Below, piece after piece: positions 33,684 to 36,381 of a stretch of DNA of 64,000 nucleotides (its first letter is position 1; each line of letters begins with the position of its first letter). The translations under genes were made by a program, and so were the position numbers. This stretch comes from Pirellula sp. (GTDB taxonomy: Bacteria > Planctomycetota > Planctomycetia > Pirellulales > Pirellulaceae): NCBI GenBank assembly GCA_021300015.1, contig JAJTFB010000002.1, positions 1 to 64,000 on the forward strand, read 5' to 3'. The notes under the pieces are model-generated. The model did no database searches. It saw nothing but the letters and a program-made list of their open reading frames with translations, and was not told the DNA's origin.

Positions 33684-35498
33684 CTACTCCTCCTGCTGCA
33701 TCTTGCCACGACCGAATGAGAATTCGAACTCGCTCAGCGCCGGGATAAGCATCGCAGCGGTGGCAAACGCATAAGAGACGACGACCGTAGAAAACACGGT
33801 GAGCTCTTGGTCGCGAAGAATAAAACTAGTGATGGCAAAGAATGTAAGGAAAGGGAGCAGAAAAGAGGTCAGTGCGATTGCCGGTGAAGGGTTGCGATTG
33901 CCGATGGCCAAGTACAAACCGGTACCGCCACCGAGGATGATCATCAAGAAGGGGGCCAACTGCCGACCAAACGAGCCGCGGAACATCAGCATGATCAGCA
34001 TGCAAGTGGCGACGCCGAGGAACAGGAAGAAAACCGTTCCGAGGCTCGTGCCGATGGCTGTGCGACTTTGGTGGTAGATCATCCCGCAGTGGATTCCAAG
34101 CATGCAAACAAACATGTCCATGACCAGCATGGCGATGCCCGAAAAGATCAGGTTTTCGGTCGAGAGTCCACCATAAAACCAAGGGATTAAGAGCAGGAGA
34201 ATCGGTAAGAGGACCATCTCCTTCATCACATAGAGGACACCGAGGATCTTGCCGAATATGAAATCGACCGGGGTGATCTCTGTGACCAAGAGCAAATCGA
34301 GGGCTCCGCCGTCGCGCTCGTTGGTCACCGAATTGACCGCCAGAGCATTGATCAAGATCAGGGAGAAAACTAAAAGGGGTGCGAGGATCGTAACGGCCGG
34401 AGCGACCAATTGCTCTTGGTACCCACGGTCGGCCATCGAACCGGGCCCAGAGCGGGCGATTTGGAACAGGCCGAAGGCCACGCAGGCGGCAAGAATTAAA
34501 TAGGCAACTCGAATGATCAAGACTTTTTTGCCGTAGGCCCAAGTCCGCATCTCGCGCCATAGGATCGGGTTGGACCACATGGGGCGCGGGTCGCGACTCT
34601 TCCAGGACTTGATGGCCCTGGCGCCGGCTGGCAACTCAGGAGCTCCGAGGTCACTCGATTCGGTCTGTGCATCGGAGTATTCGGCCGAGACCTTGCGACG
34701 CTCGCGGTTGGGGTTCCAGACCCTGAGTCTTAGGATGGAAAGCCCCATGAGCAGTAGTGAACTTGCAAGCAAGACCGAGGAGCTCTCGATCGCTTGCTCC
34801 CAAACCCCGAGGGGCGAGGCCGTCGCGCTGCGCAGGATTGGCTGCGCGACCTGCCACACGGCCCGAATCGGGCTCAACGCAGTCGCGAACTTTGGAGCGA
34901 TTCCTGGGATGGCCCCCAGTTGGATCGCTTCGCCGACGGCAAGCCAGATCGCGACGGCCAGGAGAGTCACGGCAATGGCCTGAAACGTTTTCTCTCTCCA
35001 AAACGCGATGGTCGCTCCCAGAGAGCAAGTCAGAACGATGGTGCTGGCCGTGATCAATGCGACACTGGCGGATTGTTCGAGCGAAACCCCACCGAGCAAC
35101 GGTGGGAGAAAAAGGATCGGCGCTACGGCCAACAACGCGTTGAACGCTCCTAAAAGTCCCGAGCCGACTTTGCCCAAGACCACCTCGGAGTTGCTCAGCG
35201 AGGTCATCAAAAGCAGGGTGAGCGTCTGCTTGTCCTTCTCGTGGCTTACGGCAGTGACGCCGGCCAAAGCCCCTAGAAACATCAAAACAAACAACTGAAA
35301 CGGAGCGATGAGTTGAAAAATCAGAACTCCGAACCGGGCCAAATCCCCGGCGTTTTGGACCGGTTGAACACCGGCAAGCAGCAACCATGTCGTGCTGATG
35401 ATCGCAAAGACCATGACGAGGAAAACCACCCGCGCAGCAAAGTGTCGTGGGCGGCGCGGTAGCACAGCGGTTTCGCGTTGAAAAATCGGTCCGATCAT
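33684..35498 (-). CDS. ABC-2 type transporter permease
   Basis: A 604-residue membrane protein with two sets of about six spans. The first set begins near residue 22; the centre is a polar cytoplasmic linker ('RRKVSAEYSDAQTESSD') and the second starts around residue 325. The stretches 'AVSHEKDKQTLTLLLMTSLS' and 'NSVTNERDGGALDLLLVTEI' are duplicated versions of the 'E-R-x-x-G-T-L-E-x-L-L' loop that couples ABC-2 permeases to their ATPase, so the protein is a fused dimer of a GldF/NatB-like permease. No ATPase gene is adjacent, which is odd; it may be encoded elsewhere. I prefer the ATG at 35498 to the TTG at 35516. Function is export-like but the substrate is unknown. Confidence 0.8.
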   Translation of the reverse strand: MIGPIFQRETAVLPRRPRHFAARVVFLVMVFAIISTTWLLLAGVQPVQNAGDLARFGVLIFQLIAPFQLFVLMFLGALAGVTAVSHEKDKQTLTLLLMTSLSNSEVVLGKVGSGLLGAFNALLAVAPILFLPPLLGGVSLEQSASVALITASTIVLTCSLGATIAFWREKTFQAIAVTLLAVAIWLAVGEAIQLGAIPGIAPKFATALSPIRAVWQVAQPILRSATASPLGVWEQAIESSSVLLASSLLLMGLSILRLRVWNPNRERRKVSAEYSDAQTESSDLGAPELPAGARAIKSWKSRDPRPMWSNPILWREMRTWAYGKKVLIIRVAYLILAACVAFGLFQIARSGPGSMADRGYQEQLVAPAVTILAPLLVFSLILINALAVNSVTNERDGGALDLLLVTEITPVDFIFGKILGVLYVMKEMVLLPILLLLIPWFYGGLSTENLIFSGIAMLVMDMFVCMLGIHCGMIYHQSRTAIGTSLGTVFFLFLGVATCMLIMLMFRGSFGRQLAPFLMIILGGGTGLYLAIGNRNPSPAIALTSFLLPFLTFFAITSFILRDQELTVFSTVVVSYAFATAAMLIPALSEFEFSFGRGKMQQEE

Positions 35499-35955
35499 AG
35501 CCGTCAGTCTAACCAACGGGGGGAATCCAGGCTATATCTGGGTTCGCAAATCCAGGCCGGAGGCGACTTACAGTGTAGAGCCATTGTCCCCAATGGCTTC
35601 CCGACGACGCGCAAGCGGAGGAGTTTTACCGCTGTTCGGCTGTTTTATCTTACTGTCTGCGGTGGTTTCAGGTTCCGATCGATTGGGGACAATCGATCTA
35701 CCATTTGTAACCAGCGCACGAAAAGTCGGTGCCGGGCACTGAGCCCAGGGGCGCCGACAGGCCGGAGGCCTATCCCACGGGTAATGAAAATCGGTGAGCG
35801 GACGCTCAATTAGGCTGGCTGATTCGGCGGGAGGGCGCTGGCGTTGAGCAAATGAGCTATACGAACCTTTGTTTTCTGGTTATTGTCATTGCGGATATCG
35901 CTTTGCAATTGATGGTTTTGTTCCGAGCTTAGCGCCTTTACAGAGGTTTTGGGTC
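35499..35955. other. Intergenic interval with a hairpin-dense structured element
   Basis: A 457-base gap between the divergent ABC-2 permease and the DUF2203 gene. No open frame here is convincing. The section 35580-35808 contains five consecutive dyads and is described separately; the remaining sequence before the DUF2203 start contains an AGAGG ribosome site at 35943-35947. Confidence 0.6.
35580..35808. ncRNA. Candidate structured RNA or palindromic repeat cluster
   Basis: Five dyads are seen in order. (1) 35580-35597: 7-base arms GCCATTG/CAATGGC, loop TCCC. (2) 35677-35698: 9-base arms GATCGATTG/CAATCGATC, loop GGGA, which is complementary to the first loop. (3) 35725-35758: 9-base outer stem with one G-T pair, inner stem GGGC/GCCC with loop ACTGA, and a three-base bulge. 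(4) 35759-35771: AGGCC/GGCCT with loop GGA, stacked directly on the third. (5) 35795-35808: TGAGCG/CGCTCA. The first two share the 12-mer ATTGTCCCCAAT in opposite orientation, and the next base pair out is swapped from C-G to G-C, as expected if pairing is kept. This could be a non-coding RNA, a leader for the gene at 35956, or a mobile palindromic repeat. Confidence 0.45.
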
Positions 35956-36381
35956 GTGCCCGCCACATTTCACTTTTCGCATGAACAAGCTCGCTCGATG
36001 CTGCCGTTACTTCGGCTGATCGTCGCTGACATTTCGTTGTCGCATCGGGAGCTTACCGATCGTCGCTCGCACTTGCGCAGGATGCTCCGGAGTCACCAGG
36101 GCAAGGCGAGGTACCAAGTGTACGATCAGGAGATCGTCGAAATGCAAAAGGAGTTGGCAGACGAGGCGAGGCATTTGGACGACTACATAAGCGAGCTTGA
36201 GCGCCTCGGGGTGATTCTTCGTTCAGCCCATGAGGGGATCGTCGATTTTCCGACCTCGATCGATGATCGGCGAGCTTTTTTTACTTGGCAGATGGGCCAG
36301 GATGACGTCAGTGATTTTCATTGGCACGATGAATCGACGGCGGAGCGTCGAAGACTAGCTTCGACAAGCCCAGAGGGCTGA
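35956..36381 (+). CDS. DUF2203 family protein
   Basis: A 141-residue protein of the DUF2203 family, function unknown. It begins with the family pattern 'FHFSHEQARSMLPLLRLIV', continues through long helices rich in Arg and Glu that probably form a coiled coil (residues about 20-85), and ends with 'GVILRSAHEGIVDFPTSIDD' and 'FFTWQMGQDDVSDFHWHDE', the most conserved part, which has a Trp and two His near the end. The GTG at 35956 was chosen because AGAGG stands eight bases before it and the family starts there; the open frame reaches back to 35869. It leads a group with MazG and QueD on the same strand. Confidence 0.75.
   Translation: MPATFHFSHEQARSMLPLLRLIVADISLSHRELTDRRSHLRRMLRSHQGKARYQVYDQEIVEMQKELADEARHLDDYISELERLGVILRSAHEGIVDFPTSIDDRRAFFTWQMGQDDVSDFHWHDESTAERRRLASTSPEG

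Follow-up and report, generated by a model that had tools for sequence, protein, structure and literature searches.

A hairpin cluster between two divergent genes of Pirellula is chiefly one copy of a genome-wide REPIN-like repeat

Between two divergent genes of a Pirellula contig lies a cluster of hairpins (35580-35808 of the window, by which we mean the whole 64-kb stretch of DNA analysed), and the question is what such a cluster represents. The original prediction offered two readings, a structured RNA, possibly with a loop-loop contact, or a palindromic mobile repeat. Our analysis leads to the conclusion that the cluster is chiefly a single copy of a short genome-wide repeat and not a new RNA. 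We are highly confident that positions 35573-35704 form a REPIN, that is, a non-autonomous mobile repeat acting at the DNA level and composed of two inverted REP hairpins tagged with GTAG. The five dyads first described are not a single element: hairpins 1 and 2 make up one REPIN and hairpin 4 comes from a different family, and the crowding of hairpins arises because two repeat families landed in one intergenic gap (Table 1).

Table 1. Features of the hairpin cluster and its neighbours, in window coordinates.
Feature	Position	Strand	Description or basis
REPIN-type element (very probable), ~132 bp	35573..35704	.	two GTAG-tagged REP hairpins inverted around a ~70-base spacer
Left REP: GTAG tag 35575-35578 and hairpin AGCCATTG-TCCC-CAATGGCT	35575..35599	+	sequence, tag conservation, covariation
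Right REP (minus-strand reading): ATGGTAG, then hairpin GATCGATTG-TCCC-CAATCGATC	35677..35704	-	sequence, exact 26-base match elsewhere
Third hairpin, outer stem GTCGGTGCC/GGCGCCGAC	35725..35758	.	locus comparison and predicted fold
Fourth hairpin, diverged copy of the second REP-like family	35757..35778	-	reverse complement GTGGGATAGGCCTCCGGCCTGT; family consensus GTGGGATAGGCTTCCAGCCTGT
Fifth dyad GAGC-GGAC-GCTC, weak	35796..35807	.	centroid fold
Left neighbour: ABC-2 type permease gene, transcribed away from the element	33684..35498	-	Pfam PF12679
Right neighbour: DUF2203 gene, anchor for the orthologous locus	35899..36381	+	Pfam PF09969

Hairpins 1 and 2 have perfect stems of seven pairs (35580-35597) and nine pairs (35677-35698), each with a 4-base loop. 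The 12-mer ATTGTCCCCAAT lies exactly where it had been placed, at 35583-35594, as does its reverse complement at 35682-35693, and the pair just outside this shared core is indeed C-G in one hairpin and G-C in the other. Of 300 dinucleotide shuffles of these 229 bases, only 4 had at least two stems of seven pairs or more. The RNA fold of all 229 bases is more stable than that of shuffles (z = -3.3), and the DNA fold of the element at 35574-35705 gave z = -2.8. Hairpin 3 (35725-35733 with 35750-35758, including one G-T pair) and hairpin 4 (35760-35770) are both present in the predicted fold. The fifth dyad, with 4 to 5 pairs only, fails the stem test and is too short to serve as evidence. At each end of the REPIN the GTAG tag precedes a hairpin built on the shared core ATTG-TCCC-CAAT, and both tags face outward. 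Left-end stems read GAGCC/GGCTC or GAGCT/AGCTC and right-end stems GATCG/CGATC, and the left edge of the element is blurrier than the right.

A search of the window's own genome (G000, 81% complete) with positions 35560-35830 returned 52 matching places, nearly all limited to 35562-35704 and many arranged in head-to-tail arrays. When the search was extended to 59 relatives, many copies were detected in three genomes of the same genus (G010, G014 and G019) and three in G001; the rest of the genus had few copies or none, and no copy turned up in those relatives that belong to other genera. The exact 26-base pattern of the right end is found in 36 stretches of Pirellula-like genomes, the hosts being Pirellula sp. 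49624_E51.1 and other Planctomycetota metagenome-assembled genomes. The GTAG tag is present in most of 215 distinct REP contexts. Neighbouring cores are +/- oriented in 24 of 39 pairs in G000, mostly 95-99 bases apart, and in 43 of 85 pairs in related genomes, with a spacing of 95-105 bases. Furthermore, 84 of 127 REP cores in 36 relatives' loci lie outside long ORFs although ORFs make up 86% of the bases, and this count is an underestimate because arrays create spurious ORFs.

Pairing within the REP stem is maintained while the sequence changes. Across 51 distinct REP sequences 95.4% of cells were paired and six of nine pairs displayed compensatory double changes. The covariation score was 0.319, whereas shuffles averaged 0.115 and slid-partner controls did not exceed 0.133. 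Only the six outer pairs are informative here, since the search pattern fixed the inner three in nearly all sequences. Compensation on this scale is stronger evidence than the single compensated pair first noticed. Thus the idea of a palindromic mobile repeat is borne out for hairpins 1 and 2, which have abundant homologs with conserved pairing in related genomes, occur in many copies and tandem arrays, and are associated with a gene for a REP-associated tyrosine transposase (RAYT; below).

Comparison of the orthologous locus, anchored on the DUF2203 gene (ortholog in 26 of 27 genomes) and then aligned, shows a single REPIN copy each for G000 and G014, a tandem pair for G010 and a tandem of three for G019. 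At this locus in G004 and G001 there is no REPIN and the DUF2203 gene is still there; the G013 contig covers the right part of the locus only. The gap left of DUF2203 in G001 (L174) holds long GTACTC/GAGTAC repeat stretches in place of the REPIN. Other loci behave likewise, with a position common across species and a copy number that differs, which indicates that the insertions are old and inherited and that tandem number changes fast. Comparing L104 with L101 seemed to reveal an empty site, but the core there lacks a hairpin and is due to chance, and the case was rejected. We found no clean empty/filled pair that would mark a fresh single insertion, and we therefore infer movement from the distribution of copies.

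The segment with hairpins 3 to 5, searched as a repeat, is single copy in its own genome, and its copies in G010 and G019 are orthologous. G000, G010 and G019 all have the part with hairpins 3 and 4, which is missing from the REPIN-carrying ortholog in G014. The segment (window 35715-35810) is bounded by direct repeats, which in G019 (L043/L170) read CACGAAAAGTCGG on both sides, a pattern that would fit insertion with target duplication or deletion between repeats. In relatives the segment with hairpins 3 to 5 also gave short matches to a second REP-like family. Hairpin 4 matches this family, ACAGGC(T/C/A)GGA(A/G/T)GCCTATCCCAC, which occurs in 9 of 11 genomes of the genus (0 for a control pattern), and the centre of the hairpin changes as a pair, from CT/AG in most copies to CC/GG in the window. 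In G014:C28 (L140 1375-2430) the family flanks a different RAYT-like gene. Hairpin 4 is therefore what is left of a copy from a second REP-like family, which is independent of the first and has a RAYT-like gene of its own, and here too the mobile-repeat reading was right. Hairpin 3 had no repeat relatives in its own genome or in the relatives searched, and its only other copies are the orthologous ones in G010 and G019.

The element itself is tied to a transposase in G010:C89, where REPIN arrays of exactly the window type border a RAYT gene to its left and right. In G005 the gene for a homologous RAYT-like protein sits amid seven GTAG hairpins with cores TTGTCC(C/T)CAA and CTGTCCTCAG. Hairpins of the same type, tagged GTAG or GTAA, border the homologous RAYTs of G005, G017, G020, G023 and G025. 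All four RAYTs that were aligned contain the HxH motif (PNHVH) and the conserved Tyr. Matches of the RAYTs to NCBIfam REP_Tyr_transpos reach E values down to 1e-18, each of them below the curated cut-off, and the G005 protein matches Pfam Y1_Tnp as well as PDB 4er8 (TnpA-REP) at E 1.9e-5. This RAYT subfamily is present in 16 of 27 genomes of the genus.

In a tree of 19 RAYTs of the subfamily, those flanked by CTCCG-type hairpins form one branch (support 95/98) apart from those flanked by the TTGTCC type. REP-type labels require 4 changes on this tree, compared with a shuffled mean of 8.0, and none of 200 shuffles was as low. Hairpin type thus follows the RAYT tree. The TTGTCC label of G025:C12, which falls outside the main group, is based on one core only and probably reflects chance. 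A sister RAYT clade (L230, L231, L232, L236 and L237) carries flanking hairpins tagged GTAG or GTTG, typically ACGACGCTCCGCCGTCGT. Numerous copies of GTTTAACCCGCAGCCAACGGCGAGGAAGCGC, which probably represent one more REP family, flank a RAYT-like gene in G000:C26 (L032, L135).

A RAYT of the G010:C89 type was not found in G000 (81% complete), G014 (96%) or G019 (95%), and the present-day driver is thus missing or unassembled there. The locus corresponding to the flank of the G010 RAYT was recovered in all three genomes, where it holds REP or REPIN sequence only and the RAYT is absent; in G004 and G001 neither a REP core nor the RAYT was found at this locus. Several G000 contigs (C101, C66 and C62) end inside the repeat, so a RAYT gene could have been missed. 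The three Pfam Y1 transposases of G000 were considered as drivers and rejected, as they have no REP core in their flanks and are surrounded by other repeats. A Y1 protein of 324 aa in G019 was likewise set aside; it has one REP core about 430 bases off with a degenerate tag, and no second copy. Short Y1 transposase genes of G000:C13 (L030) and G000:C81 (L031) are located inside other palindromic repeats (GCCCCAACGGGGC, AGCCCTGAAAGGGC and TAGCCCAGGGC...GCCCTGGG), and the copy in G000:C81 has an internal stop. As G000, G014 and G019 keep many REPIN copies at shared positions, we raise the tentative idea, doubtful at present, that this REPIN population has outlived its own transposase, its copies being kept and tandem-amplified by an agent other than the RAYT and possibly being useful to the host.

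Based on the REP/RAYT literature (PMC3116915, PMC8266576, PMC3733652), the following biochemical steps are likely. The RAYT, a tyrosine HUH transposase of the IS200/IS605 superfamily, would bind the folded single strand of the REPIN, read the GTAG tag together with the hairpin and cleave beside the hairpins. It would then copy or move the unit into other sites, where the inserted copies may grow or shrink as tandem arrays. The features observed here are the copy number, the inverted pairing, the tag, the compensatory stem changes, the differences in tandem copy number between species at the orthologous locus and the flanking of RAYT genes in relatives by identical or matching REPs; the spread of the repeat was probably the work of this known, 'domesticated' type of transposase.

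Other origins can be envisaged for such an element. A MITE, as a small derivative of a DDE insertion sequence, would also have two inverted ends, a short non-coding spacer and many copies, and would be moved by the DDE transposase via its terminal inverted repeats with target-site duplication. There is some surplus of 6-8 base flank matches (for 8 bases, 12 observed vs 1.3), but tandem arrays would also yield it and are probably its source, as their flanks are repeated too. However, the ends here are hairpins with a GTAG tag and identical ends flank a tyrosine RAYT gene, no target duplication is visible by eye at the window copy, and no insertion sequence with these ends was present among the loci inspected, a non-systematic sample; we regard a MITE as highly improbable. 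A locally useful palindrome that terminates transcription or stabilises mRNA, multiplied by recombination alone and without a transposase, is the least probable of the alternatives. Change in tandem copy number is typical of recombination or slippage, and three element-rich genomes yielded no RAYT, yet spread to many unrelated loci requires a copying mechanism, REP type tracks RAYT clade, and the hairpins lack a terminator-like T-run.

A structured regulatory RNA, or a leader of the DUF2203 or permease gene in which two hairpins touch via their loops, would account for the low folding energy, the compensatory changes and the location between two divergent genes. Nevertheless, the unit is found at many unrelated loci, and the DUF2203 gene is kept in species that have no REPIN at the locus. 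Covariation of the REP is expected anyway from recognition of folded single-stranded DNA. The loops are complementary, as had been pointed out, but any two inverted copies of the same sequence, such as hairpins 1 and 2, have complementary loops automatically, so this offers no independent evidence for a loop-loop contact, which we reject. With Rfam giving no match across the whole window, and no promoter-like or terminator-like signal and no T-run after the hairpins in the element, the structured-RNA half of the original prediction lacks support and such an RNA is very unlikely. The REPIN thus remains our reading of hairpins 1 and 2.

REPIN/RAYT systems are mostly known from Proteobacteria, and the present case is an element of a well-understood type in a host group that has received little study, the freshwater organism being a planctomycete. 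In this one planctomycete genus several clades of RAYT occur, every clade having a hairpin type to itself, and close relatives exist with and without the transposase. The genus is therefore a natural setting for asking whether REPINs persist and change in number after RAYT loss.

In Pseudomonas fluorescens SBW25, REPINs consist of inverted REPs with a fixed-length spacer, show an excess of inverted doublets and have cores 71 or 110 bases apart (PMC3116915). The Pirellula element is similar in all but the core distance; it also shares with SBW25 the tandem clusters, in which flanking DNA is included, and a cognate RAYT flanked by REPs. In contrast to SBW25, the two REPs of one unit differ here (GAGCC or GAGCT stem vs GATCG), core spacing is 95-100 bases, the host is a planctomycete, and no RAYT was found in some element-rich genomes. 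The E. coli BIMEs served by TnpA-REP also comprise a REP and an inverted REP with a linker, often in tandem, and that transposase acts on a single strand and requires GTAG (PMC8266576); the stems here pair perfectly and lack the bulge seen in E. coli, and in this they resemble the group 3 REPs of the same study. Members of the GTAG super-family of REPs and REPtrons likewise have GTAG at one foot of the palindrome, dimers with outward tags and repeat-flanked RAYT genes (PMC3733652). Since that study had described GTAG repeats from the PVC superphylum, and more than one REP family from R. baltica, this type of element is known. What is new is the repeat family, compared with the GTAG repeats there by description and not by consensus, and its host, a Pirellula-like freshwater lineage.
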